Under the pieces are notes generated by a model. The model made no database searches. It was not told where the DNA came from and was given only the letters and a program-made list of their open reading frames with translations. A program made the position numbers and the translations under genes. Below are positions 18,457 to 34,395 of a DNA stretch of 36,294 nucleotides, in pieces; position 1 is the stretch's first letter; each line of letters opens with the position of its first letter. The DNA is taken from assembly GCA_947449945.1 (NCBI GenBank), contig CANFTO010000007.1:1-36294 (forward strand), in the 5' to 3' direction. Source of the stretch: Actinomycetota bacterium. Its GTDB lineage: Bacteria; Actinomycetota; Actinomycetes; S36-B12.

Positions 18457-20349
18457 ATGGGTTCCTATGAAGCGGCATACCGGTTGGCAGAAACCGATCC
18501 TGAATATTTTTGGCTAGTTGCGGCCCGTGCCATTAGTTGGGATGCATTTCCTAAGAAAGCACTGGATTCATCACAAGCGCCGCTATATCGCTGGTTTCCT
18601 GATGGCGAATTGAATACATGCTTCAACGCCGTCGATCGACATGTTCGAGCAGGCCATGGGGATCGTGATGCAATTATCTACGACAGTCCAGTGACAGGCG
18701 TTAAGCGCAAGGTGAGCTATACACAGTTGCAGGATCAAGTGAGCCGATTCGCTGGAGTATTGGCAGGACTCGGTGTGAGTAAAGGCGATCGGGTCGTTAT
18801 CTACATGCCGATGATTCCTGAAGCCGTTGTGGCGATGCTGGCAACTGCTCGCCTCGGCGCCGTTCATTCAGTCGTGTTTGGCGGATTTGCTCCAGCGGAG
18901 TTGGCGGCGCGCATTGATGACGCTGCGCCAAAAGTTATCGTGGCTGCGTCTTGCGGAATCGAACCTAATCGCACCATTGCCTATAAACCATTGGTTGATG
19001 AAGCAATTACATTAAGTCATCACAAGCCCACGGCCACAATTGTGTTCCAGCGCCCTGAACTACCGGCTGAGTTACATGATGGAGATCATGACTGGTCAGT
19101 GCTCATAGAGAATGCCCATCCGCATGAGTGCGTGAGTGTGAATGCAACTGACCCGCTCTACATTCTTTACACATCAGGAACAACAGGAAAGCCAAAGGGT
19201 GTTGTTCGCGATAACGGTGGCCACGCAGTTGCAATGCAGTGGTCCCTTGGCAATGTGTATGACATTGGCCCGGGTGATGTTTTTTGGGCAGCGTCAGATG
19301 TGGGATGGGTAGTAGGTCACTCTTACATTGTGTATGCGCCGCTCATCGTCGGTGCAACCACAGTGATGTTCGAAGGCAAGCCTGTTGGAACACCGGATGC
19401 GGGAGCCTTCTGGCGGATGATTGAGGAATACAAAATCAATGCCTTGTTCTGTGCTCCGACCGCGATCCGCGCGATTAAGCGCGAAGATCACGAAGGTGTA
19501 CTCATCGCACAATACGACTTGAGTTCGTTGAAAGCACTCTTCCAGGCAGGTGAGCGACTGGATCCTGATACATACTTCTGGGCTACAGAGCACCTGAAGA
19601 TCCCAGTGATTGATAACTGGTGGCAAACAGAGACAGGTTGGCCTATCGCGGCGAATCTACGTGGATTGGAACCAATGCCGATCAAGGCAGGTTCGCCTAC
19701 CGTTGCTGTACCCGGCTATAACGTGCAGGTGGTTGATGGTGAAGGCCTTCACGTTGCTGCAGGTGTTGAAGGATCTATCGTGATTAAGCTTCCGATGCCT
19801 CCCGGCACCCTGCCAACGTTGTGGGGAGATGACCAGCGCTACATCGATTCGTACCTCATGACTTTCGAGGGTTATTACACGACTGGTGACGGCGGAATGA
19901 TTGACGAAGATGGTTATGTTTTCGTCCTTGGTCGCACAGATGATGTCATCAACGTGGCAGGTCATCGGCTATCCACTGGATCGATGGAAGCTGTTGTCGC
20001 ATCACACCCTTTAGTCGCCGAATGCGCAGTTATTGGTGTTCAAGATCAACTGAAAGGTCAAATTCCACGAGCCTTTGTGGTGTTGAAAGCGGGTGCAGAT
20101 ATTGACCCAAGCGTGCTTGAGCGGGAAATCGTTCAGTCGATTAGGCAAGAAATTGGTGCGGTGGCCGCACTCAAGGAAGTCGTGGTGGTGCAAGCCTTAC
20201 CGAAAACGCGTTCAGGGAAGATTCTGCGGCGCACCATGCGAGCAATTGCGGACGGCCGACCAGAAGCCATCCCAGGAACGATCGAAGACGTCCGTGTGCT
20301 TGATGCGATTACTCCACTACTCAAAAGCGTCAAGAGCGAAACGCCTTAA
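18457..20349 (+). CDS. prpE: PrpE-like (propionyl/acetyl) acyl-CoA synthetase, AMP-forming
   Basis: LYRWFPDGELNTCFNAVDRHV, ILYTSGTTGKPKGVVRDNGGHAVA, SDVGWVVGHSYIVYAPL, DNWWQTETGWPI, LPKTRSGKILRRTMRAI; closer to PrpE than to Acs by motif reading. Confidence 0.85.
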   Translation: MGSYEAAYRLAETDPEYFWLVAARAISWDAFPKKALDSSQAPLYRWFPDGELNTCFNAVDRHVRAGHGDRDAIIYDSPVTGVKRKVSYTQLQDQVSRFAGVLAGLGVSKGDRVVIYMPMIPEAVVAMLATARLGAVHSVVFGGFAPAELAARIDDAAPKVIVAASCGIEPNRTIAYKPLVDEAITLSHHKPTATIVFQRPELPAELHDGDHDWSVLIENAHPHECVSVNATDPLYILYTSGTTGKPKGVVRDNGGHAVAMQWSLGNVYDIGPGDVFWAASDVGWVVGHSYIVYAPLIVGATTVMFEGKPVGTPDAGAFWRMIEEYKINALFCAPTAIRAIKREDHEGVLIAQYDLSSLKALFQAGERLDPDTYFWATEHLKIPVIDNWWQTETGWPIAANLRGLEPMPIKAGSPTVAVPGYNVQVVDGEGLHVAAGVEGSIVIKLPMPPGTLPTLWGDDQRYIDSYLMTFEGYYTTGDGGMIDEDGYVFVLGRTDDVINVAGHRLSTGSMEAVVASHPLVAECAVIGVQDQLKGQIPRAFVVLKAGADIDPSVLEREIVQSIRQEIGAVAALKEVVVVQALPKTRSGKILRRTMRAIADGRPEAIPGTIEDVRVLDAITPLLKSVKSETP

Positions 20350-21725
20350 ATAATGCTCCAGGCTTCAGTGAGCACGCTGCGAAGAATTTGCGTCATCTCT
20401 TCGAACTGCTCTTCTCCGGCAATGAGTGCGGGAGCAACCTGAACTACAGGGTCGCCACGATCGTCAGATCTGCAGTAAAGCCCGTTTGCAAACATGGCCT
20501 TGGATACAAAACCGCGCAGGAGTCGCTCAGACTCTTCCTCGGTAAAGGTTTCCTTTGTGGTCTTGTCTTTGACCAGTTCGATTCCGTAGAAGTAGCCCAT
20601 CCCGCGAACATCCCCGACGATAGGCAAATCTCGAAGTGTGTCCAGATGCTTCAAGAAAAGATCCTCGTTGTCTTGAACACGCTGGTTGAGGCCTTCGCGT
20701 TCAAATATATCGAGGTTAGCCATGGCAACGGCAGCTGATGTTGGATGTCCACCCCAAGTGAAACCGTGTAAGAAAGTGTTGGTGCCATGCTTAAACGGTT
20801 CAAAGAGTCGTTCATGCGCGATCATCGCGCCCAGTGGTGAGTAGCCGGAGGTCAATCCCTTGGCGCACGTGATGATGTCCGGAGTGACTCCGAATCGACT
20901 CATCGCAAAGTAGTCACCAATGCGCCCAAATGATGTGATGGTTTCATCAGCGATAAGTAAGACGTCATATTGATCGCATATTTCACGCACGCGCTCGAGG
21001 TAGCCTGGAGGTGGAGCGAAACATCCGCCTGAGTTTTGAACTGGTTCGAGGATGACAGCGGCAACACTGTCGGGGCCTTCAAATTCAATTGCTTCAGCGA
21101 TGCGATTTGCTGCGTATTGACCAAAGGCGTAGCGATCATGTGCAACATGATCAGGTGCACGATAGAAATTCGTATTCGGTACTCGAATTGAGCTTGGAAC
21201 AAGAGGTTCGAATGGAATTTTTGCTGCGGCAATACCTGTGAGAGACAAAGCTCCATGCGGGGTTCCGTGGTAAGCGACGTCGCGACTGATGACTTTGTGT
21301 TTCGTGGGCTTTCCTGTGAGCTTGTAGTACTGCTTTGCGAGTTTCCACGCAGATTCAACGGCCTCGCCGCCACTACCGGTGAAGAAGATTCGGTTCAGAT
21401 CACCAGGAGCCAGAGAAGCTACGCGTTCAGCTAATTCAATTGCTCGTGGGTGGGCTACGCCCCAGACAGGAAAGTAGGCAAGTTCACGCGCCTGAGTAGC
21501 TGCTGCTTGGGCGAGTTCCTCGCGTCCGTGGCCAACTTGCACGTTAAACAAGCTCGCAATGCCATCGAGGTAGCGCTTGCCGTTTTCATCCCAAAAGTAA
21601 CAACCGTCGCCTTTGACAATGATCGGCAACTCTTCGCCTTCAAAATACGGTGAGTGACGCGTGAAGTGCATCCACAAATGGTCGCGAGCTCGGTCCGCGT
21701 AACTTCGTTCGTCAGCTATTTTCAT
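20346..21725 (-). CDS. Class III PLP-dependent aminotransferase (candidate polyamine/omega-amino acid aminotransferase)
   Basis: DENGKRYLDGIASLFNVQVGHG, FFTGSGGEAVESAWKLAKQYY, ADETITSFGRIGDYFAM, TCAKGLTSGYSPLGAMI (catalytic Lys). Confidence 0.9.
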   Translation of the reverse strand: MKIADERSYADRARDHLWMHFTRHSPYFEGEELPIIVKGDGCYFWDENGKRYLDGIASLFNVQVGHGREELAQAAATQARELAYFPVWGVAHPRAIELAERVASLAPGDLNRIFFTGSGGEAVESAWKLAKQYYKLTGKPTKHKVISRDVAYHGTPHGALSLTGIAAAKIPFEPLVPSSIRVPNTNFYRAPDHVAHDRYAFGQYAANRIAEAIEFEGPDSVAAVILEPVQNSGGCFAPPPGYLERVREICDQYDVLLIADETITSFGRIGDYFAMSRFGVTPDIITCAKGLTSGYSPLGAMIAHERLFEPFKHGTNTFLHGFTWGGHPTSAAVAMANLDIFEREGLNQRVQDNEDLFLKHLDTLRDLPIVGDVRGMGYFYGIELVKDKTTKETFTEEESERLLRGFVSKAMFANGLYCRSDDRGDPVVQVAPALIAGEEQFEEMTQILRSVLTEAWSII

Positions 21726-22189
21726 CGGGTTCCCCAGGTGTAGATCTGTTTGCGTAATTTGAGATAGACAAAGGTTTCGGTAGCTCGCACGCCAGGGATT
21801 GCACGCATGCGCCCATTAATAATGTCGAGAAGTTCCGCGTCGTCAGTCACAACAAGTTCGGCAAGGAGATCGAATGAACCCGCGGAGATGATTAAGTAAT
21901 CAATCTCAGGAATCTCTTCAAGGCGATCAGCAACCTCTTCAATGTCGCCATCGACGGTGATCCCCACCATTGCTGAACGTGAGAATCCAAGAGAGGCGGG
22001 ATCAGTTACGGCCACGATCTGCATAACTCCGGCTTCGGTGAGTTTTTGCACACGCTGGCGCACAGCGGCCTCCGAGAGACCAACGGCTTTGCCTATTGCG
22101 GCGTAAGGGCGTCGGCCATCCTCTTGGAGTTGTTCGATGATGGAGCGAGAGACCTCGTCCACAACTACTGCCGCTTCCTTGCGAGCCAT
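21722..22189 (-). CDS. Lrp/AsnC family transcriptional regulator
   Basis: IIEQLQEDGRRPYAAIGKAVGLSEAAVRQRVQKLTEAGVMQIVAVTDP HTH followed by a RAM-like domain; ATGA overlap with the aminotransferase. Confidence 0.93.
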   Translation of the reverse strand: MARKEAAVVVDEVSRSIIEQLQEDGRRPYAAIGKAVGLSEAAVRQRVQKLTEAGVMQIVAVTDPASLGFSRSAMVGITVDGDIEEVADRLEEIPEIDYLIISAGSFDLLAELVVTDDAELLDIINGRMRAIPGVRATETFVYLKLRKQIYTWGTR

Positions 22190-22259: not shown

Positions 22260-22333
22260 ATACGTAGGAATTCATGCCTTTGGGTGTTGATATGGCAATG
22301 CCTATCTATGATCATCCTTGGATTGGAGCCATC

Positions 22334-23779
22334 ATGACCCAGCGGGTATTACGCAACGTGATCAACGGCGAATCAGTGGAAGCCTCATCAACTGAGGTCA
22401 CTGAACTCGTCAATCCCAGCACCGGTGAAGTGTTTGCGTTAGCGCCAGCGTCAAGCGCTGCTGACATTGATCAGGCGTACCGGGCTGCGAGTGAGGCCTT
22501 TGTCAGTTGGCGTGATGTCACACCAAGTACGCGTCAAACTGCTCTCTTGACGATTGCTGACGTGCTTGAAGCACATGCCGATGAGCTCAATGCTCTTGAG
22601 AGCGAAAACACCGGCAAGCCAATAGCCGTTACGGCAACAGAAGAAATCCCACCGATGCTTGATCAGATCCGATTTTTCGCAGGTGCAGCGCGCATGCTGG
22701 AAGGAAAATCTGCAGGCGAATATATGCAGGGATTCACCTCATTTATTCGTCGCGAGCCAGTAGGCGTCATTGGCCAGGTCACGCCTTGGAATTACCCGAT
22801 GATGATGGCGGTGTGGAAGTTCGCTCCAGCAATCGCAGCCGGTAATACGGTGGTTCTCAAGCCAAGTGACACCACGCCAGTCTCCACTGTGCGAATGGCT
22901 GAACTCATTGCGCAGTCCGGTGCGCTGCCACCAGGAGTGTTCAACGTCGTTTGCGGCAATCGGGAAACAGGCAGAGCATTAGTCGAGCATTCAACCCCAA
23001 GCATGGTGTCAATTACTGGATCTGTTCGAGCTGGCATGAATGTTGCCGAGTCCGCTGCCCGGGACCTTAAGCGCAGTCATTTAGAACTGGGTGGCAAAGC
23101 CCCCGTTGTGGTCTTCGAAGATGCCGATATCCCCGCAGCCGTCGAGTGGCTGGCCGTTGCTGGCTATTTCAACGCTGGGCAAGATTGCACTGCTGCAACG
23201 CGCATGCTCGTCAGCGAGAAGGTCTACGACGAATTCGTCGCTGCGATGGTTGAGCAAGCCAGAGCAACGCAGACCACATTTATTGGCGGGCCGTCAGGGG
23301 AGGGCTTTGTGCCTCCAGTGAATAACGCGGCCCAACTCGAGCGAGTCCTGGGATTCCTGGATCGGGCCCCAAAGCATGCTGAGATCGTGGCGGGAGGTGT
23401 GCGCCAAGGCAGTCGTGGATATTTCATTGAACCCACGGTTGTGGCGAACTTGGAACAAGGTGACGAAATGATTCAGCAGGAGATTTTTGGCCCCGTCGTT
23501 ACGATTCAGCGATTCTCTGATGAGGCCGATGCTCTCCAGAAAGCCAATGACGTGGAATACGGACTAGCAGCAAGCGTCTGGACTTCAAATGTGGCCCGAG
23601 CTCTGCGCATGAGTAAGTACATCGATGCAGGCGCTGTCTGGATCAATACCCACATCCCGATCGTGGCCGAAATGCCCCATGGCGGCTTCAAGCACTCCGG
23701 TTATGGCAAGGATTTGTCGATGTACGGGTTCGAGGACTACACCCGAATCAAGCATGTGATGGCAAGCCTGGAGGGCTAG
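22334..23779 (+). CDS. patD: Gamma-aminobutyraldehyde dehydrogenase-like aldehyde dehydrogenase (PatD/YdcW type)
   Basis: VTPWNYPMMMAVWKFAPAIAAGNTVVLKPSD, LELGGKAPVVVFEDAD, FNAGQDCTAATR (catalytic Cys), EMPHGGFKHSGYGKDLSMYGFEDYTRIKHVM resembles the PatD C-terminus. Alternative in-frame start at 22274 has its own weak SD. Confidence 0.86.
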   Translation: MTQRVLRNVINGESVEASSTEVTELVNPSTGEVFALAPASSAADIDQAYRAASEAFVSWRDVTPSTRQTALLTIADVLEAHADELNALESENTGKPIAVTATEEIPPMLDQIRFFAGAARMLEGKSAGEYMQGFTSFIRREPVGVIGQVTPWNYPMMMAVWKFAPAIAAGNTVVLKPSDTTPVSTVRMAELIAQSGALPPGVFNVVCGNRETGRALVEHSTPSMVSITGSVRAGMNVAESAARDLKRSHLELGGKAPVVVFEDADIPAAVEWLAVAGYFNAGQDCTAATRMLVSEKVYDEFVAAMVEQARATQTTFIGGPSGEGFVPPVNNAAQLERVLGFLDRAPKHAEIVAGGVRQGSRGYFIEPTVVANLEQGDEMIQQEIFGPVVTIQRFSDEADALQKANDVEYGLAASVWTSNVARALRMSKYIDAGAVWINTHIPIVAEMPHGGFKHSGYGKDLSMYGFEDYTRIKHVMASLEG

Positions 23780-23863
23780 CGAATTTCCCTCATGGGGTTT
23801 GATGGCAGGTCGAGACGCATTCATGATTGTGTGGCAGTAAGTTATGGACTTCACCGTCCGCCC

Positions 23864-23877
23864 ACTGTTGGAACAGT
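23864..23877. promoter_or_regulatory. Perfect palindrome ACTGTTGGAACAGT between patD and potD
   Basis: 6-bp arms with GG spacer, 8 bp before the AGGAGG SD of potD. Confidence 0.4.
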
Positions 23878-23896
23878 CGCCCCACAGGAGGTTCAG

Positions 23897-25117
23897 TTGT
23901 CTGAGAATCGTGATTCGGTCGCTCGCGAGATCGCCGGAATGATGCGTTCATCCCTTTCCCGTCGTCGGATTCTGCAGGCTGCAGGTATTACTGGAGTTGC
24001 TGCAGTTGCCGCTGCCTGTGGTGCTAGCGGTGATTCCGGAACTGCCACCGCATCAGCGGCGCCTTCTGCAGCAGATCTATCTGACTCAGACAAAACGGTT
24101 ATCTGGTCGAACTGGCCTGGTTACATGGATACCGATGAAAAATCAGGGGCGCGACCATCGCTAGATGCCTTTGTGAAGCAAAGTGGTGTCAACGTGACCT
24201 ACAACGAAGACATTAATGACAACAACGAGTTCTACGCCAAAGTTCGCACTCAGCTTGAGCAAGGTCAACCAATTGACCGCGACATCGTGGTTCTGACTGA
24301 CTGGATGGCTGCGCTTTGGATCGAAAGCGGCTACGCCCAAAAGTTGGACAAGGCTTCAATGCCAAACGCCTCAGCTAACGTGATCGACAAGCTACAAAAC
24401 GTGGCCTTCGACCCAGGTCGTGAGTACTCGCTTCCTTGGCAGTCAGGTTTTGGGCTCTTTGGTTGGAATAAGCCCAAGCTCAAAGAATTGATAGGCACAG
24501 ACACTTTGACGTCAGTGGATCAGTTGTTTAACCCAAAGCTCAAGGGTCGTGTCACAGTCTTGTCTGAAATGCGCGACACCATGGGCATCATCATGGCCTG
24601 GCAAGGCAATGACCCTTCTAACTTCACTGAAGATCAATTCATGCAAGCTATTGATGCGCTTCGCACTCAGATCGACAATGGTCAGATTCGCAGTGTTGAG
24701 GGCAATAGCTACATGAGTGACATGGAGAGCGGCAACGTTGTCGCGGTCATTGGATGGTCAGGTGACGTCATCCAACTCGGTAAGAACTTTGGTATTGCGC
24801 TGCCAGAAACCGGTGGAACATTGTGGACCGACAATATGTTGATCCCGCCTTTGGTGGCTCATAAGAAAAACGCTGAGAAGTTGATGAACTACTATTATGA
24901 GCCAGAAGTTGCCGCAAAGATTTCTGCATTTGTGCAGTACATCTCGCCAGTGAAGGGTGCGCAAGAAGCGATGAAAAAGGTCGATCCCTCGTTGGTTGAT
25001 AACCAATGGATCTTCCCGACTGCTGAAACGCTCAACAAGTCTTATGTGTTCATGACGCTCACCCCTGAGCAGGACGTGAAGTATCAGCGCGCTTTCCAGA
25101 AGGCGATTGGTAACTAG
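23897..25117 (+). CDS. potD: Spermidine/putrescine-type ABC transporter substrate-binding protein (Tat lipoprotein)
   Basis: TTG start 5 nt after AGGAGG; SRRRILQAAGITGVAAVAAACG (twin-Arg plus lipobox Cys); VIWSNWPGYMDTD... PotD/PotF-like mature region; followed by potABC. Confidence 0.87.
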   Translation: MSENRDSVAREIAGMMRSSLSRRRILQAAGITGVAAVAAACGASGDSGTATASAAPSAADLSDSDKTVIWSNWPGYMDTDEKSGARPSLDAFVKQSGVNVTYNEDINDNNEFYAKVRTQLEQGQPIDRDIVVLTDWMAALWIESGYAQKLDKASMPNASANVIDKLQNVAFDPGREYSLPWQSGFGLFGWNKPKLKELIGTDTLTSVDQLFNPKLKGRVTVLSEMRDTMGIIMAWQGNDPSNFTEDQFMQAIDALRTQIDNGQIRSVEGNSYMSDMESGNVVAVIGWSGDVIQLGKNFGIALPETGGTLWTDNMLIPPLVAHKKNAEKLMNYYYEPEVAAKISAFVQYISPVKGAQEAMKKVDPSLVDNQWIFPTAETLNKSYVFMTLTPEQDVKYQRAFQKAIGN

Positions 25118-25119
25118 CC

Positions 25120-26283
25120 ATGCCCGCAGGGGTTGGTCGCACAGTTGAAGATCTACGCCTCGTCAATCTGACAAAGCAATTTGGCGTAAGTAAAGCCGTA
25201 GATGATCTCAGTATCACTATTTCAGCAGGGTCATTCTTTGCACTCCTAGGTGCTTCGGGATGTGGCAAAACCACTACATTGCGTATGGTCGCTGGGCTTG
25301 AAGATCCGACCTCAGGGCAAGTATTTATTGGTGAGCAAGATGTCACTGATCTGCGAGCCTTTCAACGTCCGGTGAATACCGTCTTCCAGTCGTATGCATT
25401 GTTTCCACACCTCGATATTTTTGAGAATGTTGCGTTTGGGTTAAGGCGTCGAGGCATAAAAGATGTTGATGCACAGGTCAACACCATGCTGGATCTCGTT
25501 GAACTCTCAGCATTAGCCAGACGTAAGCCAAGTCAACTCTCCGGAGGTCAACAGCAGCGGGTTGCTGTAGCGCGGGCCTTGATAAATCAACCAGATGTCT
25601 TGCTCCTTGATGAGCCGTTGGGAGCACTTGATCTCAAACTTCGCCGACAAATGCAGATTGAGTTGAAGCGCATTCAGTCTGAAGTCGGCACAACCTTCGT
25701 GCATGTCACTCATGATCAAGAAGAAGCCATGACCATGGCCGACACTGTTGCTGTCATGAATGCAGGGCGTATTGAACAAATGGGACATCCCGCTGATGTA
25801 TATGAAATGCCTCGCACAATCTTTGTGGCAAATTTCCTCGGGCAGTCCAATTTAATTCAAGGAACTCTTGCGTCTTTCGGTGATGTGGTTGAAGTTGCCG
25901 CGTTCGGATTGAGTTTCAAGATGCCAAGTCAACGTAATGTTGCGCCTGGGCATTCAGTTGTCGTAGGTGTACGTCCAGAAAAAATCACTGTGCTCGACGC
26001 TCATGATGAAACGAAACTCCCGTCAACCCACAATCGGATTTATGGCACCGTCACGGATGTTTCATACACAGGTGTATCAACTCAATATTTGGTGGAAACG
26101 CCTTGGGAGCAATCGATCATTGCTTTCGAGCAGAACTCCATTGTTGGTGATAGGTGTGAATTAGGCGATCCGGTCGTTCTTGGATGGGCCCCTGAACATA
26201 CCTTTGGGCTTGATCCAGCTGAAGGAATTCACGCTGGCTTAGATCGTGCAGTGTTGGAACTCGAGAGTGATACGGAGGCCTAA
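25120..26283 (+). CDS. potA: Polyamine ABC transporter ATP-binding protein
   Basis: LLGASGCGKTTTLRMVAGLEDPTSG, LSGGQQQRVAVARALINQPDVLLLDEPLGALDLKLR, C-terminal TOBE-like region. Confidence 0.93.
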   Translation: MPAGVGRTVEDLRLVNLTKQFGVSKAVDDLSITISAGSFFALLGASGCGKTTTLRMVAGLEDPTSGQVFIGEQDVTDLRAFQRPVNTVFQSYALFPHLDIFENVAFGLRRRGIKDVDAQVNTMLDLVELSALARRKPSQLSGGQQQRVAVARALINQPDVLLLDEPLGALDLKLRRQMQIELKRIQSEVGTTFVHVTHDQEEAMTMADTVAVMNAGRIEQMGHPADVYEMPRTIFVANFLGQSNLIQGTLASFGDVVEVAAFGLSFKMPSQRNVAPGHSVVVGVRPEKITVLDAHDETKLPSTHNRIYGTVTDVSYTGVSTQYLVETPWEQSIIAFEQNSIVGDRCELGDPVVLGWAPEHTFGLDPAEGIHAGLDRAVLELESDTEA

Positions 26284-26286
26284 GTT

Positions 26287-27183
26287 ATGGCTCCCATCGC
26301 TCCCGCTGCATCTGTGGCACCAAGTGCCGCTGAAGGTTCAAAAAAGCGTTCGAGGATTGCGTATTTCTTACTGATCCCGGGTTTGGCATGGCTTTCGATC
26401 TTTTTCGTCATTCCACTTGTCACGCTGTTCATTACCAGTCTTCAAACAGAATCCACTCGACGCCCTGGTACCTATGTGCCGGGCTTTCAGATCAGCAATT
26501 ACACCGACGCATTAGCCGAGTATTGGCCACAGTTCGTTCGCTCATTTGTGTATGCCGGATTGGCGACGGCTTTCGCCCTTGTCATTGCCTACCCGCTTGC
26601 TTATTTCATTGCCTTTAAGGCTGGTAACTGGCGTTCGCTGATGTTGGTTTTGGTCGTTGCGCCTTCATTCGCCTCGTTCTTGCTGCGCACTTATGCATGG
26701 AAGACCATTCTGGCCGACGATGGGCCAGTAACTTCGGCGTTAAACACATTGCACGTATTACCTGACGGTCGAATTCTCAACACCGGAATCGCAGTTGTTG
26801 CCGGACTTACCTACAACTTCCTTCCCTTCATGGTGTTGCCACTTTATGCATCACTCGACAAGATCGACTATCGCCTGATTGAAGCGGGTAATGATCTTTA
26901 TGGATCTCCTCAGCAAGTTTTCAGGAAAGTCACGTGGCCGTTATCTATGCCAGGAGTTGTTGCCGGAACTTTGTTGACGTTTATTCCGGCTGCTGGCGAC
27001 TTTATTAATGCCGAACTTCTAGGTTCAACGAAAGACAAGATGATCGGCAACGTGATTCAAACGAACTTCATAGAATTCCGTGATTATCCAACGGCCAGCG
27101 CTCTGTCATTTTCATTAATGGCAGCAATTTTGATTCTCGTTCTCACGTACATCCGTAGGTCTGGAACGGAGGACCTCGTCTAA
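26287..27183 (+). CDS. potB: Polyamine ABC transporter permease (PotB type)
   Basis: Multi-TM; EAGNDLYGSPQQVFRKVTWPLSMPGVVAGTLLTFIPAAGDFINAELLG permease loop. Confidence 0.92.
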   Translation: MAPIAPAASVAPSAAEGSKKRSRIAYFLLIPGLAWLSIFFVIPLVTLFITSLQTESTRRPGTYVPGFQISNYTDALAEYWPQFVRSFVYAGLATAFALVIAYPLAYFIAFKAGNWRSLMLVLVVAPSFASFLLRTYAWKTILADDGPVTSALNTLHVLPDGRILNTGIAVVAGLTYNFLPFMVLPLYASLDKIDYRLIEAGNDLYGSPQQVFRKVTWPLSMPGVVAGTLLTFIPAAGDFINAELLGSTKDKMIGNVIQTNFIEFRDYPTASALSFSLMAAILILVLTYIRRSGTEDLV

Positions 27184-27980
27184 TGCGTTGGATTCGTGAG
27201 CATGTCATTGGCGCAATCGCAGTCATGGTGTTGTTGTACCTATTCCTGCCAATTGCGGTGGTTATCGCGTTCAGTTTCAATAATCCAGCGAGCAAGTTCA
27301 ATCTCTCGTGGAATGAATTTTCACTTGACGCGTGGACTCAGATTTGTGGTGTGCCTGGCGTGTGTTCTTCATTTGTTACGAGTGTCGAAATCGGGCTGAT
27401 TTCAACACTGTTCGCCACGATTTTGGGCACGATGATTTCATTCGCGTTAGTGCGCTACCGCTTTAAAGGTCGCTCATCTACAAACCTTTTGATTTTCATG
27501 CCAATGGCTACGCCTGAAATCGTTATGGGTTCGAGCCTTCTGGCACTTTTCCTGAATTTGAGCTTCCCGCTGGGTCCAGTCACGGTGATGATCGCGCACA
27601 TCATGTTCATCATTTCTTTCGTGGTCGTGGCTGTGAAAGCGCGCCTTCAGGGAATGGATCCGCGTCTTGAGGAAGCTGCGCGTGATCTCTATGCATCGCC
27701 TTCAGCCACGTTTAGATATGTGACCTTTCCTTTAGTTTTGCCAGGGATTCTGGGTGCTGCCCTTTTGGGATTTTCGCTTTCATTTGACGATTTCATTATC
27801 AGTTTCTTCAATGCGGGAACATTGGTGACATTCCCGATTTACATCTGGGGTGCTGCCCAACGTGGTATTCCGCCACAGGTCAATGCGCTTGCTTCGCTTG
27901 TGTTTATTGCTGCTCTTGTGATTGTGCTGAGCGCCCAGGTTGTCGCTTGGCGCAAGCGCAAAGCACTCGCCGTTCGTTAA
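27183..27980 (+). CDS. potC: Polyamine ABC transporter permease (PotC type)
   Basis: Multi-TM; EEAARDLYASPSATFRYVTFPLVLPGILGAALLGFSLSFDDFIISFF; overlaps potB stop. Confidence 0.92.
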   Translation: MRWIREHVIGAIAVMVLLYLFLPIAVVIAFSFNNPASKFNLSWNEFSLDAWTQICGVPGVCSSFVTSVEIGLISTLFATILGTMISFALVRYRFKGRSSTNLLIFMPMATPEIVMGSSLLALFLNLSFPLGPVTVMIAHIMFIISFVVVAVKARLQGMDPRLEEAARDLYASPSATFRYVTFPLVLPGILGAALLGFSLSFDDFIISFFNAGTLVTFPIYIWGAAQRGIPPQVNALASLVFIAALVIVLSAQVVAWRKRKALAVR

Positions 27981-27999: not shown

Positions 28000-29196
28000 A
28001 TGCGCGTCCTAGTTATTGGGGCCGGGGGTGTGGGCACGGCTTCCGCACTCATCGCGAAACGTAGAAATTTCTTTGAAACGTGGGTAGTTGCGGACTACGT
28101 GCCAGCTCGTGTGTCTGAATTAATTGAACGCCTAGGAGATGATCGATTCGTTGGTCTGACGTTAGATGCCGGGGATGGCACAGCTATTGAGGCCGCGATT
28201 CGGGAATACTCAATTACACATGTACTCAATGTGATTGATCCAAGATTCGTGATGTCGATCTTTAATGCCTGCGCCGCCGCGGGCGTGCATTACATGGACA
28301 CTGCAATGAGCCTTTCTCGACCGGGTGTGAAACTTGGCGATGAACAATTTGCGCAAGAAGAGCGATGGAAGGCTCGCGGCCAGCTTGCTCTTTGCGGGAT
28401 GGGTGTGGAGCCTGGGTTGGCAGACGTATTCGCGAGGTATGCCAGCGATCATCTCTTCAGCGAGATAGATGAAATCGGTGTTCGTGACGGTGCGAATTTG
28501 GTTGTAGACGGATATGACTTCGCACCAAGTTTTTCCATTTGGACCACAATCGAGGAGTGTCTAAATGATCCGATCGTTTGGGAAAAGAATCGCGGATGGT
28601 TCACGACAGCGCCATTTAGTGAAAGTGAGATCTTTGATTTTCCTGATGGGATCGGACCAGTTGAATGTGTCAATGTCGAGCATGAGGAAGTTGTGCTTGT
28701 TCCACGCTGGATTGACTGCAAACGCGTGACCTTTAAATACGGACTCGGTGATGAGTTCATTGGAGTGCTCAAGACGTTGCATACGCTTGGGCTTGATAGC
28801 ACTGAACCGGTCAATGTGCGAGGCGTCAGCGTGAGTCCACGCGATGTTATTGCTGCTGTATTACCAGATCCTGCTTCTATCGGTCACCTCATGCATGGAA
28901 AAACCTGCGCAGGGACCTGGGTGACAGGGCTTGGTAAAGATGGAAAACCTCGTCAGGTGTATCTCTATCACGTGGCTGATAATGACTGGACGATGCAGGA
29001 ATTCGGTGTGCAAGCAGTGGTGTGGCAAACCGCCATGAATCCGCTTGTTGCGTTGGAATTACTCGCCACGGGTGTGTGGTCTGGATCTGGGGTACTTGGT
29101 CCAGAAGCATTTGATTCAGTGCCATTCTTGGAACTACTTGAGTCTGCTCACGGACAAAAGTTTGGCCATCGCGAAGAAAAGGTGAACGCAAAGTGA
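28000..29196 (+). CDS. Saccharopine dehydrogenase family protein, carboxynorspermidine dehydrogenase (CANSDH)-like
   Basis: Rossmann N-terminus MRVLVIGAGGVGTASA; GVEPGLADVFARYA; FDFP...; KRVTFKYGLGDEFIGVLKTLHTLGL; AAVLPDPASIGHLMHGKTCAGTWVTGLGKDGKPRQVYLYHVAD, the same block order I recall for CANSDH. ATG at 28000 with AAAGGTGGG upstream. Confidence 0.8.
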   Translation: MRVLVIGAGGVGTASALIAKRRNFFETWVVADYVPARVSELIERLGDDRFVGLTLDAGDGTAIEAAIREYSITHVLNVIDPRFVMSIFNACAAAGVHYMDTAMSLSRPGVKLGDEQFAQEERWKARGQLALCGMGVEPGLADVFARYASDHLFSEIDEIGVRDGANLVVDGYDFAPSFSIWTTIEECLNDPIVWEKNRGWFTTAPFSESEIFDFPDGIGPVECVNVEHEEVVLVPRWIDCKRVTFKYGLGDEFIGVLKTLHTLGLDSTEPVNVRGVSVSPRDVIAAVLPDPASIGHLMHGKTCAGTWVTGLGKDGKPRQVYLYHVADNDWTMQEFGVQAVVWQTAMNPLVALELLATGVWSGSGVLGPEAFDSVPFLELLESAHGQKFGHREEKVNAK

Positions 29197-30650
29197 CCTC
29201 TCAGATGGTTGTGAAGCATTGGCCTGCGTGGGTGGCTGGCGAAGCGGTGTCCGAAGGCTCCAGCGTTGAAGTCACGCATCCTGGTGATGATTCGGTGGTC
29301 GGTACACATGTTGTGCCCACCGTTGATCAAGTTGAAGCTGCGATTGTCGCCGCTTGGGATATACGAGGAGCAGCGCAAGCCACGTCTGCCGCACAGCGGG
29401 CTGCAGCGTTAATGCATGTCAGTACTCAACTCTTGGCACGTCTTGATGAGGCAGCGAATCTGATCACTGCGGAAAATGGTAAGCCATTGATGTGGGCGCG
29501 AGCCGAGGTCAATCGCGCTGCGTCAACCTTCCGTTGGGCAGCAGAAGAAGCCCGCCGGTTTGGTGGAGACCTTCAACGGCTAGATACCGATCCGGCAGCG
29601 AGCGGACGCGCAGCAATTATTCGACGGTTCCCACGTGGGCCTGTGTTGGGTATTTCACCATTTAACTTTCCCATCAATCTCGTCGCGCATAAATTAGCCC
29701 CAGCGATTGCCGTTGGTACTCCGATCATTATTAAGCCAGCTCCGGCAACGCCTCTGGGTGCGTTGTTCCTCGGTGAATTGTTGGCGCAGGCAGATTTACC
29801 GGCCGGTATGTGGTCGGTTTTGCCGGTGGCAAATGATTTGGCACCAATGCTGGTGCAAGATCCTCGACTGCCTGTGATTTCTTTTACTGGTTCCGATGTC
29901 GTAGGGCGCCTCATTCAAGATTCGGTCCCACGTAAGCACGTCACCCTAGAACTTGGCGGCAACGCAGCGGCTGTAGTCCTTGGAGATTACTCATCTGATG
30001 CCGATCTGGAATGGGCAGCCAGCCGAGTTGCAACCTTTGGGTACTACCAAGCGGGCCAGTCCTGCGTATCGGTTCAACAAGTGTTAGTGGACTCAAGCGT
30101 TGCCGATCGCTTCGTGTCAATGCTGGTTGAAAAGGTTCACGCACTGCCTGCAGGAGCTGTATGGGATGAGGCAACGGTTGTTGGTCCGATGATTAGTGAG
30201 TCTGCAGCTGTACGAGTTGAGACTTGGATCCAGGAAGCCGTTGAACAGGGTGCGCAAGTACTTGCTGGTGGAACTCGTGTTGGCACGTTAGTCGCGCCGA
30301 CACTCCTCGCGCAGGTGCCATCCTCGGCAAAGGTGGCCTGTGAGGAGGTGTTTGGACCCGTGGTGGTGGTTCAAGTCATTGAAGGTCTTGATGATGCGAT
30401 GAACCGCATCAACACCTCACGTTTTGGTTTGCAAGCAGGGATTTTTACCCACAACATTCAGGATGCATTCAGAGCACATCGTGATCTTGAAGTGGGCGGA
30501 GTGATTATTGGTGATGTGCCAAGTTTCCGCGCTGATCAGATGCCCTATGGCGGGGTCAAGGATTCCGGTGTGGGTCGGGAGGGCGTCGGATCGGCAATGG
30601 ACGATCTGACCTATGAGCGTGTTCTCGTGCTGACTGATCTCGCGCTCTAG
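29193..30650 (+). CDS. NAD(P)-dependent aldehyde dehydrogenase (candidate succinate-semialdehyde or aminoaldehyde dehydrogenase)
   Basis: ISPFNFPINLVAHKLAPAIAVG, TLELGGNAAAVV, YYQAGQSCVSVQQV (catalytic Cys), EEVFGPVVVV; GTGA overlap with the upstream gene. Confidence 0.9.
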   Translation: MTSQMVVKHWPAWVAGEAVSEGSSVEVTHPGDDSVVGTHVVPTVDQVEAAIVAAWDIRGAAQATSAAQRAAALMHVSTQLLARLDEAANLITAENGKPLMWARAEVNRAASTFRWAAEEARRFGGDLQRLDTDPAASGRAAIIRRFPRGPVLGISPFNFPINLVAHKLAPAIAVGTPIIIKPAPATPLGALFLGELLAQADLPAGMWSVLPVANDLAPMLVQDPRLPVISFTGSDVVGRLIQDSVPRKHVTLELGGNAAAVVLGDYSSDADLEWAASRVATFGYYQAGQSCVSVQQVLVDSSVADRFVSMLVEKVHALPAGAVWDEATVVGPMISESAAVRVETWIQEAVEQGAQVLAGGTRVGTLVAPTLLAQVPSSAKVACEEVFGPVVVVQVIEGLDDAMNRINTSRFGLQAGIFTHNIQDAFRAHRDLEVGGVIIGDVPSFRADQMPYGGVKDSGVGREGVGSAMDDLTYERVLVLTDLAL

Positions 30651-30671: not shown

Positions 30672-31898
30672 ATGCGCGCGATTGTCATTCTGGGATCAAC
30701 GGGATCAATAGGTACCCAGGCCTTAGAAGTCGCTAGCCGTAATCCTGACCGCTTCCGAATCATTGGCCTTGGCGCAAGTGGGCGCGAGGTTGAGCTGATC
30801 GCACAACAAGCCGCTGAGTTTGAAGTTGACGTTGTTGCACTCACGAATCCAAATTCCCAAGAGCAATTCCAAGCTGCGTTTGCACAGGCATGTGCACAGC
30901 GGGGAAAGAAACTTCGAACACTGACGATTTTGACGGGCCCAGACGCACAAGAGCAATTGGCTTGCTGGCCATCTGATGTGGTCCTCAATGGCCTAGCGGG
31001 CGCAGCAGGCCTCGTGCCAACTCTTTCGGCATTGAAGGCTGGTCGCACGTTGGCGTTAGCGAATAAGGAGTCACTCATCATCGGCGGCGATCTTGTGCGA
31101 GCAGTGGCCGCACCTGATCAAATTGTCGCCGTCGATTCAGAACATTCAGCCTTAGCGCAATGCTTACGCGGCGGAGCAAAGAACGAAGTAAAGCGGTTAG
31201 TGCTGACTGCTTCTGGTGGGCCTTTTCGTGGTTGGACGAAGGAGCAATTGGCAACAGTTACTCCCGAACAAGCACTGAAGCATCCCACCTGGACGATGGG
31301 TCCATTGGTCACGATCAATTCGGCGACTCTGATGAATAAAGGATTAGAAGTAATCGAGGCTCATCTGCTCTTTGATATTCCATTCGATTCCATTGATGTC
31401 GTGGTGCATCCACAATCAATCGTTCATTCAATGGTCGAGTTTCATGATGGATCAACATTGGCGCAAGCAAGTCCACCGGATATGCGTCTGCCCATTGCTT
31501 TGGGTTTGGCGTGGCCCGATCGCGTGGCAGATGCGATTCCAGGCTGTGACTGGAGCAAGGCTTCGACTTGGGAATTCTTCCCGCTGGACAATGAGGCATT
31601 TCCAGCTGTGGACATTGCACGTAAGGCGGGTGCAGCAGGAGGCACTGCAACGGCTGTCTTTAATGCTGCTGATGAAGCGTGTGTTGGTGCCTTCTTAGAT
31701 CGAACCGTCGCATTCACGTCAATCGTCCGAGCGGTAGAGCAGGTGCTCGACGAACATATTTCGGGTGGAGATGACCGAGCTGGATCTGCATGGGTGTCAG
31801 GGGGTGTTGTTACCGTCGCAGATGTGGAATCAGCTGATGCCTGGGCACGGGTTCGTGCCCTTGAGGTAGCAGCGACCTTTACGGATGGGGAGAGGTAA
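30672..31898 (+). CDS. dxr: 1-deoxy-D-xylulose-5-phosphate reductoisomerase
   Basis: [91 protein letters not shown]. Confidence 0.97.
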
Positions 31899-33220
31899 TG
31901 GCGGAAGTCATTGGCATCGTTATTTTCGCCTTCCTCATTGCGCTATCTATCACGCTGCACGAACTCGGCCATTTCATTCCAGCCAAGCGCTTTGGCGTAA
32001 AGGTCACTGAATTCATGATCGGTTTCGGTCCTGCGCTTTGGAAGAAAACCAAGGGTGAAACAACCTACGGATTGAAAGCCGTACCCCTAGGTGGATACGT
32101 CCGCATGATTGGCATGCTGCCTCCCGGTAAGAACGACCCCGAGGGACAACTTCGCCGCGGTTCAACTGGTCGCTTCGCGACGATGATCTCTGATGCTCGA
32201 CAGCAATCGATGGAAGAGGTGGGGCCAGGCGACCAGAACCGAGTCTTTTACAAGTTGCCCGTTCACAAGCGTGTGATCATCATGCTTGGTGGGATCACGA
32301 TGAACTTAATTTTCGCTGCAGTGCTCTTTTCAATTGTGTTGGTCGGCATTGGTTTACCAAAGCCTTCACTTGAAGTTGGTGCAGTCGTGGCGTGTACACC
32401 ATCAAGTGCGCATCCAAGCGGTTCACCGCTTCCGTCAGGGAATTGTCCGACTGGTACAGATAAAACTCCAGCGATCATTTCTGGATTGAGCAAGGGTGAT
32501 GTGATCACATCAGTGAACGGAACCGCAGTAGCTGATTGGGATGCAGTGAGCGCTCAATTGCGTGCATCGGCGGGTAAAATAATCAGCGTTGGGGTCCAAC
32601 GCAGTGGATCATCACTGATGATTCCACTAGAAGTTGCCACAATCGATCGACCAGTTTTTGATGAAGCAGGCTTCCCCACAGGCAAAACGCAGCCCAGCGG
32701 TTTTGTAGGTATTAGCCCGGGAGTGGAATATGTATCTCAGCCCTGGTCGGCTGTGCCTGCCTATATGTGGGACATCACTACTGCATCGGCAAAGGCTTTG
32801 GTCACGCTTCCGGTTCGTCTGTACGAATTGGTGAAAGACACCCTGATCGGTGGCGGAGAGCGAGCGATCGACGGGCCGGTGAGTGTGGTGGGTGTGAGCC
32901 GCCTGGGTGGGGATATCGCAGCGATGGATCAGCCGATGAAAGGAAAAATCGCCACGTTCTTGAGTTTGGCAGCCTCACTCAATTTATTCCTTGCACTCTT
33001 CAACTTACTGCCAATCCTGCCCCTTGACGGAGGGCATGTCGCGGGGGCGCTGTATGAGGCGGTTCGGCGATGGTTTGCCAAAGTACGAGGCAAGCCCGAC
33101 CCTGGTCCAGCTGATGTAGCCCGGCTCTTGCCAGTTGCCTATGTAATGGCGATCGCGTTGGTGGGCATGGGTGTCATTGTGATTTGGGCCGACTTAGTCA
33201 AGCCAATCTCACTGGGGTAG
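31898..33220 (+). CDS. rseP: RseP/Rip1-type site-2 protease (M50, PDZ)
   Basis: [28 protein letters not shown]-like [35 protein letters not shown]. Confidence 0.94.
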
Positions 33221-33231
33221 CTGCGAGGCGC

Positions 33232-33243
33232 AATAATGGCTTC
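33232..33243 (+). promoter_or_regulatory. -10-like AATAAT exactly 6 nt before GTG of ispG (leaderless-type)
   Basis: AATAAT-GGCTTC-GTG; no good SD. Confidence 0.4.
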
Positions 33244-34395
33244 GTGAGCATTGAATTGGGTATGCCGTCAGTTCCGCGAGTCATTGCCCCGCGTCGCAAG
33301 TCGCGTCAGTTAATCCTGAAGCATCCGACCCACCCTGTTGCGGTTGGTGGTGATGCGCCAATCAGTGTGCAATCAATGTGCACGACGCTGACTTCAGATG
33401 TCAATGCCACGTTGCAGCAGATTGCAGAACTCACAGCAGCTGGCTGTCAGGTCGTTCGTGTTGCCTGCCCAAGCCAAGATGATGCCGACGCGCTCCCGCA
33501 GATTGCTAGGAAGGCGGGCATTCCAGTCATCGCTGATATTCACTTCCAACCAAAGTACGTCTTTGCAGCGATCGATGCTGGTTGCGCTGGCGTTCGAGTG
33601 AATCCAGGAAACATTAAGAAGTTTGATGATCAAGTTGGTGCAATTGCGCGGGCTGCAAAAGATGCAGGCACGCCCATTCGCATTGGTGTCAATGCCGGTT
33701 CCCTTGATCCACGTCTTCTACAGAAGTACGGAAAAGCAACGCCAGAAGCACTTGTTGAGTCTGCATTGTGGGAAGCCTCACTCTTTGAAGAGCACGATTT
33801 CCGCGATATCAAAATCTCAGTAAAGCATCACGATCCAGTCGTGATGGTTGAGGCATACATGCAACTCGCTGAACAATGCGAGTACCCGCTGCACCTTGGT
33901 GTCACTGAGGCGGGTCCGGCATTCCAAGGCACGGTGAAGTCAGCAGTTGCTTTTGGTGCGCTACTGAGTCGCGGAATTGGAGACACGATTCGCGTATCAC
34001 TCTCTGCCCCACCAATTGAAGAAATCAAAGTTGGTAACGCCATCCTTGAATCGTTAAATTTGCGACAACGAGGGTTGGAAATCGTTTCTTGCCCGTCTTG
34101 TGGGCGCGCTCAGGTTGACGTATACACACTTGCTGAGCAGGTAACGGCTGGTCTTGAAGGCCTGGATGTTCCACTGCGCGTTGCTGTGATGGGTTGCGTA
34201 GTCAATGGTCCAGGCGAGGCTCGCGAGGCTGACCTTGGCGTTGCCTCAGGTAACGGAAAGGGTCAGATTTTCGTCAAGGGTGAAGTCATTAAGACTGTCC
34301 CAGAAGCAAAAATTGTTGAGACGCTGATAGAGGAAGCGATGAAACTTGCTGCTGAAATGAGTGCGACGGGTTCACCCGAGGTCACCACGCACTAG
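33244..34395 (+). CDS. ispG: 4-hydroxy-3-methylbut-2-en-1-yl diphosphate synthase
   Basis: [77 protein letters not shown] (Fe-S cysteines). Start GTG 33244 preferred; ATG 33262 possible; the track start at 33184 overlaps rseP. Confidence 0.95.

Follow-up and report, generated by a model that had tools for sequence, protein, structure and literature searches.

A gene at positions 28,000 to 29,196 of a 36,294-nucleotide stretch of Actinomycetota DNA (contig CANFTO010000007.1 of assembly GCA_947449945.1; the whole stretch is called the window here) encodes a protein of the saccharopine dehydrogenase (SDH) fold. It retains the catalytic residues of carboxyspermidine dehydrogenase (CASDH), differs from CASDHs at three diagnostic positions and lies between genes for polyamine import and aldehyde oxidation. 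We give even odds to the view that the protein is a polyamine dehydrogenase dependent on NAD+, with the CASDH active site running oxidatively. An earlier note, made from the sequence alone, had proposed that the enzyme splits a polyamine oxidatively; this hypothesis is partly supported and, as a prediction, is the best-supported reading of the data, because the protein belongs to a separate clade, has an NAD-type cofactor site and carries a charge swap beside a catalytic glutamate. Further support comes from the lack of a detectable carboxynorspermidine decarboxylase gene (nspC), the linkage to 4-aminobutyraldehyde dehydrogenase (ABALDH) and a host genome in which no genes for spermidine synthesis were detected.

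Fold and active site of the SDH protein

The gene starts with ATG a few nucleotides downstream of the ribosome-binding site GAAAGGTGGG, and its 398-amino-acid product matches PF03435 and PF16653 above their cut-offs. More than 590 relatives occur in public genomes, including metagenome-assembled genomes (MAGs) of Candidatus Nanopelagicales, which excludes chance as the origin of the gene; public records label these relatives "saccharopine dehydrogenase C-terminal domain-containing protein." In fold and class of chemistry the protein is of a known kind; this window-type SDH family was nowhere described in the papers reached by a literature search, which ended short of subscription journals and of bioRxiv preprints. 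The carboxynorspermidine synthase model NF043000 matches the protein over nearly its full length (E 7e-53, 180 bits) without reaching its cut-off of 800. All motif blocks in which a resemblance to carboxynorspermidine dehydrogenase had been seen are present (FDFP, KRVTFKYGLGD, GKTCAGTWVTG and DGKPRQV), including the block given as LLPDPxS, whose actual letters are VLPDPAS.

In Foldseek searches, the AlphaFold2 model of the protein (predicted local distance difference test 89.2, predicted template modeling [TM] score 0.91) has the three-domain SDH-type fold and matches the CASDHs (EC 1.5.1.43) of Bacteroides fragilis (8deb; TM 0.92, E 6e-41), Helicobacter pylori (8h52; TM 0.92) and Wolinella (4ina; TM 0.88), at about 30% full-length identity. 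The nearest solved structures are all CASDHs or CASDH-like (4ina, 4rl6, 8deb and 8h4z). Behind them comes L-lysine 6-dehydrogenase (3abi, TM 0.73), followed by saccharopine dehydrogenases and homospermidine synthases at about 0.7, and membership in each of these three families was rejected. L-lysine 6-dehydrogenase belongs to the same superfamily and is likewise an oxidative amine dehydrogenase, but it is only 16% identical and has no His-Glu-Glu triad (PMC10413350). The saccharopine dehydrogenases of the lysine pathway (1e5l, 2axq and 5l78) reach TM 0.67 to 0.73 with 13 to 15% identity. Bacterial homospermidine synthases (4xqg, 2ph5 and 6y87) fall in the same fold group, use NAD and act on diamines, but they are longer proteins with TM 0.66 to 0.72, 12 to 14% identity and little similarity in profile searches (E 1.7 for 6y87).

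Active-site residues were compared between 126 members of the window-type family and 13 CASDHs, namely, 4 PDB chains, 8 plasmid-borne homologues (4 of them directly adjoining an annotated carboxynorspermidine decarboxylase) and 1 actinobacterial sequence, with the residues described for the B. fragilis enzyme (BfCASDH) as reference (PMC10413350). Mean column identity in an alignment of 58 SDH relatives is 77%. His228, Glu230 and Glu186, the last equivalent to Glu188 of BfCASDH, are conserved throughout both groups, and Glu229 is found in every family member. Three positions separate the groups completely, with Asp32 in place of Ser34, Glu185 in place of Arg187 and Gln343 in place of Thr343; Trp181 is invariant in, and specific to, the window-type family. 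Structure prediction and active-site comparison, both proposed in the earlier note, thus uphold its description of the protein as CASDH-like with respect to fold and catalytic residues, but the separate clade and the three swapped residues place it outside CASDH proper.

The NADP-phosphate site of CASDH (Ser34-Arg35-Thr36-Lys39) is missing from the window-type family, which has Asp32 in all 126 members, whereas the serine and arginine are present in all 13 CASDHs. Enzymes with an aspartate at the end of beta-2 are usually specific for NAD rather than NADP, and from this residue the family is predicted to be NAD dependent. Arg187 precedes the active-site Glu188 in all CASDHs sampled; its replacement by glutamate in the family suggests, as far as the alignment goes, a substrate with an amine in the place of the aspartate semialdehyde carboxylate. 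In BfCASDH, Ser34, Thr36 and Arg45 take part in NADP binding, Thr344 packs on the nicotinamide and a catalytic role has been proposed for the His-Glu-Glu residues (PMC10413350).

SDH homologues at three further loci (L133, L134 and L135), merely 32 to 36% identical, already carry Asp32, Glu185 and Gln343, and two of them (L134 and L135) adjoin an Lrp gene, a class III aminotransferase, a gene like that of methylmalonate-semialdehyde dehydrogenase (MMSDH) and an FAD oxidase. These shared residues and neighbors suggest that the catabolic-looking group may extend beyond the window family and predate it.

Clade, decarboxylase search and genomic partners

The window-type SDHs form a clade separate from CASDH and mostly actinobacterial, the two groups lying on opposite sides of a branch with support of 100/99. 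Long branches made a root placed with distant SDH homologues unstable, and the residue differences between the groups are accordingly given as undirected. The absence of nspC, which the earlier note had reported for the window, extends to the whole genome, a MAG of 1.89 Mb in 162 contigs that is 88% complete: a genome-wide search, in which a homologue had been named beforehand as the refuting outcome, found none. It extends also to a sample of 297 Actinomycetota genomes, where no credible nspC occurs in any of the 47 further genomes with a window-type SDH. The sole credible nspC of this sample (G153, 384 bits) lies 131 nucleotides from a genuine CASDH, which has the Ser-Arg-Thr signature, groups with the CASDHs and is distinct from the window-type SDH (403 versus 180 bits to NF043000). 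Both kinds of enzyme therefore exist in the phylum, and nspC accompanies the CASDH kind only. Since this CASDH also misses the NF043000 cut-off, that cut-off alone is strict. The adjacent pair itself (L130, G153:C1:2850292-2852692) is unusual in Actinomycetota. In the remaining 68 nspC-positive genomes the matches stay below 50 bits, as LysA-type cross-matches do, and alanine-racemase-fold decarboxylases near family SDHs (L129 in G239, and L024) score best as lysA (diaminopimelate decarboxylase), the same search giving no nspC match for them.

Family-by-family searches of the window's own MAG detected no speD, speE or arginase-family gene and no FAD oxidase of the type found next to related SDHs; a GABA (4-aminobutyrate) transaminase is present. 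Each of these absences, that of nspC included, is to be read against a MAG that is 88% complete. With no nspC, speD or speE detected, the genome shows no known route of spermidine synthesis, while import and aldehyde oxidation are kept. Within the genus of the window, the neighboring FAD oxidase has been lost and the SDH retained in 8 of 9 genomes, and here no gene of the locus other than the SDH is a candidate for the initial cleavage of a secondary-amine polyamine.

The 47 further genomes with a window-type SDH (3 of them by partial matches) span 18 families, and the SDH family is also found in Micromonospora, Mycolicibacterium, Microbacterium, Streptomyces and aquatic Nanopelagicales. ABALDH is found above its cut-off in 40 of these 47 genomes versus 65 of the 249 others (Fisher p 2e-14, relatedness not corrected); co-occurrence of speD with the SDH is uninformative (4/47 versus 26/249, p 1). 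In two genomes (G175 and G197) a gap of 9 nucleotides separates the end of ABALDH from the SDH gene that follows, and on a Mycobacterium ulcerans plasmid the genes for aminotransferase, Lrp, ABALDH and SDH are ordered as in the window with no importer between them. At least one polyamine-type partner lies within 8 kb at 57 of the 80 closest loci: class III aminotransferase at 39, FAD oxidase at 28, Pot importer at 28, ureohydrolase at 21, APC permease at 13 and MMSDH at 13, with gaps of 0 to 60 nucleotides between partner and SDH at many of them; aldehyde dehydrogenases also count among these partners.

At six Nanopelagicales-type loci (L002, L008, L009, L013, L139 and L140) an agmatinase-type ureohydrolase lies 6 to 18 nucleotides upstream of the SDH, a placement that hints at guanidino polyamines as further substrates. 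A second, distant group of the SDH superfamily, 26 to 31% identical to the window protein, lies 1.5 to 3.7 kb from ABALDH in seven Actinomycetota MAGs (G296:C220, G178:C56, G232:C26, G221:C156, G317:C80, G113:C107 and G167:C307; three of these are L152 to L154) and may be another amine dehydrogenase.

Predicted reaction and rival explanations

Which bond would such an enzyme cut? The refined prediction is that spermidine, NAD+ and water give putrescine and 3-aminopropanal, because CASDH bonds a nitrogen of putrescine to aspartate semialdehyde at its aldehyde carbon, and 3-aminopropanal is the decarboxylated analogue of that aldehyde. The Pot-type importer would take up a secondary-amine polyamine, most likely spermidine; hydride would pass to NAD+ from the aminopropyl carbon adjoining the secondary nitrogen, and the imine would be hydrolyzed by a water that the retained His228/Glu230 relay may activate. 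With Glu185 where CASDHs have Arg187, the site would accommodate an amine better than a carboxylate. The aldehyde dehydrogenases of the operon could convert 3-aminopropanal to beta-alanine, and this removal of the aldehyde would pull the reaction. Putrescine would probably be converted to 4-aminobutanal by the class III aminotransferase, to GABA by ABALDH and onward through GabT and succinate-semialdehyde dehydrogenase. The SDH has MMSDH and aminotransferase neighbors in Streptosporangiales, which would fit disposal of beta-alanine via malonate semialdehyde, with putative substrates for both enzymes.

The predicted type of reaction, spermidine to a diamine and an aminoaldehyde, is that of the spermidine dehydrogenase SpdH of Pseudomonas aeruginosa, but SpdH cuts spermidine to 1,3-diaminopropane and 4-aminobutanal (PMC9397018, PMC8437039). 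Marine bacteria with no recognized spermidine dehydrogenase import and use spermidine, a step left unexplained in a study of SAR11 (PMC8437039), and the window-type family is a concrete candidate for spermidine cleavage in its own hosts that bears on this question of cleavage without SpdH. Tentatively, and with somewhat less than even confidence, we propose that Actinobacteria have a widespread family of soluble spermidine dehydrogenases, dependent on NAD+ and sharing the CASDH scaffold but with different cofactor and carboxylate sites, which cleave imported spermidine to putrescine and 3-aminopropanal and need no flavin, heme or glutamylation. If true, this would supply a missing step in the consumption of polyamines such as spermidine by many bacteria, extend the five routes of bacterial polyamine degradation listed in PMC8998196 by a sixth and correct hundreds of saccharopine dehydrogenase annotations. 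One scaffold would then serve both polyamine synthesis and breakdown, a few residue differences apart.

Several points weigh against oxidative cleavage of spermidine. In the unbiased phylum sample, about 26 of the 35 SDH loci have no obvious polyamine neighbor within 8 kb; only about 9 have neighbors of polyamine type, so the SDH gene is often solitary, and no general recurrent neighbor was found in the solitary loci. The neighborhood signal is hence real but not universal. For an NAD enzyme, such an oxidative cleavage is probably unfavorable in energy as long as the aldehyde stays in place, and the proposed orientation of Glu185 toward the substrate comes from the alignment rather than from side-chain positions. 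Moreover, the ABALDH link would also be explained by the main rival, an NAD-dependent dehydrogenase acting on the terminal amine of putrescine or agmatine and similar to L-lysine 6-dehydrogenase, by which putrescine, NAD+ and water would give 4-aminobutanal and ammonia, feeding ABALDH directly. This explanation fits the context almost as well as polyamine cleavage: ABALDH is the strongest genomic partner, some ABALDH-SDH gene pairs have no adjoining aminotransferase, an agmatinase-like gene stands directly upstream of the SDH in related loci, and 3abi is the next fold match behind the CASDHs. We nevertheless rate it as rather unlikely, since the protein resembles CASDH in fold and active site (TM 0.92 versus 0.73 to 3abi), the His-Glu-Glu triad absent from lysine 6-dehydrogenase is kept (PMC10413350), and an aminotransferase or FAD oxidase that could carry out this step is already present in the window operon and in many relatives.

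The NAD-type site also suits a reaction like that of homospermidine synthase, in which bound NAD+ would oxidize putrescine or spermidine and the aminobutyl or aminopropyl group would pass to another amine, remodeling polyamines instead of degrading them. The fold is shared at superfamily level, and the invariant Trp181 could play the cation-pi role proposed for Trp229 of homospermidine synthase, but the slight sequence similarity to that enzyme and the catabolic neighbors make this improbable. Similarly little weight is given to degradation of some other secondary amine imported by the Pot system, such as an opine-like compound, an N-carboxyalkyl diamine or saccharopine: superfamily chemistry would allow it and the substrate-binding protein of the operon matches PotD/PotF models weakly, but loss of the arginine conserved in CASDHs speaks against a carboxylate substrate, as do the ABALDH linkage and the distant match of saccharopine dehydrogenases against this group of compounds. 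A biosynthetic enzyme, either CASDH or carboxyaminopropylagmatine dehydrogenase, with its decarboxylase unrecognized or encoded elsewhere, would account for the CASDH catalytic residues and fold, and the agmatinase-like ureohydrolase neighbors recall the aminopropylagmatine route. This reading is very improbable given that nspC is found neither in the MAG nor with the family, that the decarboxylases at L024 and L129 resemble lysA, that the NADP site and Arg187 are lost in a separate clade and that the gene lies among importer and aldehyde dehydrogenase genes.

Operon and neighboring genes

TABLE 1 Coordinates of the SDH gene, its diagnostic codons and the surrounding genes in the window
Feature	Position	Strand	Evidence
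Class III aminotransferase	20346..21725	-	NF005102 (PRK06541) 770 bits, cut-off 574
Lrp/AsnC-type regulator, divergent	21722..22189	-	PF13404, PF01037
ABALDH, operon head	22274..23779	+	NF010000 675 bits, cut-off 615
Polyamine-type substrate-binding protein	23792..25117	+	PF13416; best model NF007962 PotF
PotA-like polyamine ABC ATPase	25120..26283	+	TIGR01187 351 bits of 355.6
PotB-like polyamine ABC permease	26287..27183	+	NF007044 207 bits
PotC-like polyamine ABC permease	27183..27980	+	NF007047 211.8 bits; ends 19 nt upstream of SDH
SDH/CASDH-fold oxidoreductase	28000..29196	+	Open reading frame with ribosome-binding site; PF03435 and PF16653
GAGGVG, residues 7-12, Rossmann dinucleotide loop	28018..28035	+	G7, G9, G10, V11, G12 invariant in alignment A1
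Asp32 codon, end of beta-2	28093..28095	+	D 126/126 family, S 13/13 CASDH
Glu185-Glu186 codons	28552..28557	+	Glu186 = BfCASDH active-site Glu188; E185 126/126, R 13/13
His228-Glu229-Glu230 codons, CASDH catalytic triad kept	28681..28689	+	126/126 family members
Gln343 codon (Thr in CASDH)	29026..29028	+	Q 126/126, T 13/13; adjoins nicotinamide-packing residue
Aldehyde dehydrogenase 2 (ALDH2)	29193..30650	+	PF00171; no NCBIfam equivalog cut-off reached; 4-nt overlap with SDH stop

The predicted operon runs from ABALDH through the substrate-binding protein, PotA, PotB, PotC and SDH to ALDH2 (Table 1). The SDH gene indeed lies between a polyamine importer and an aldehyde dehydrogenase, as observed before, with PotABC-type genes upstream and ALDH2 downstream, and the second aldehyde dehydrogenase, ABALDH, stands at the operon head. 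This order is conserved in three genomes of the same genus (L136, L137 and L138). The class III aminotransferase on the opposite strand is a candidate putrescine or omega-amine aminotransferase, its substrate being predicted from family and context. The Streptomyces coelicolor locus SCO5666-SCO5671 has an aldehyde dehydrogenase, a substrate-binding protein and PotABC ordered as in the window, but a PuuB-like FAD oxidoreductase, SCO5671, takes the place of SDH and ALDH2 (PMC9397018). Downstream on the same strand, dxr, an M50 protease gene and ispG (30672-34395) start within 21 nucleotides of the polyamine operon, and this neighborhood of SDH/ALDH2 and dxr recurs in relatives.
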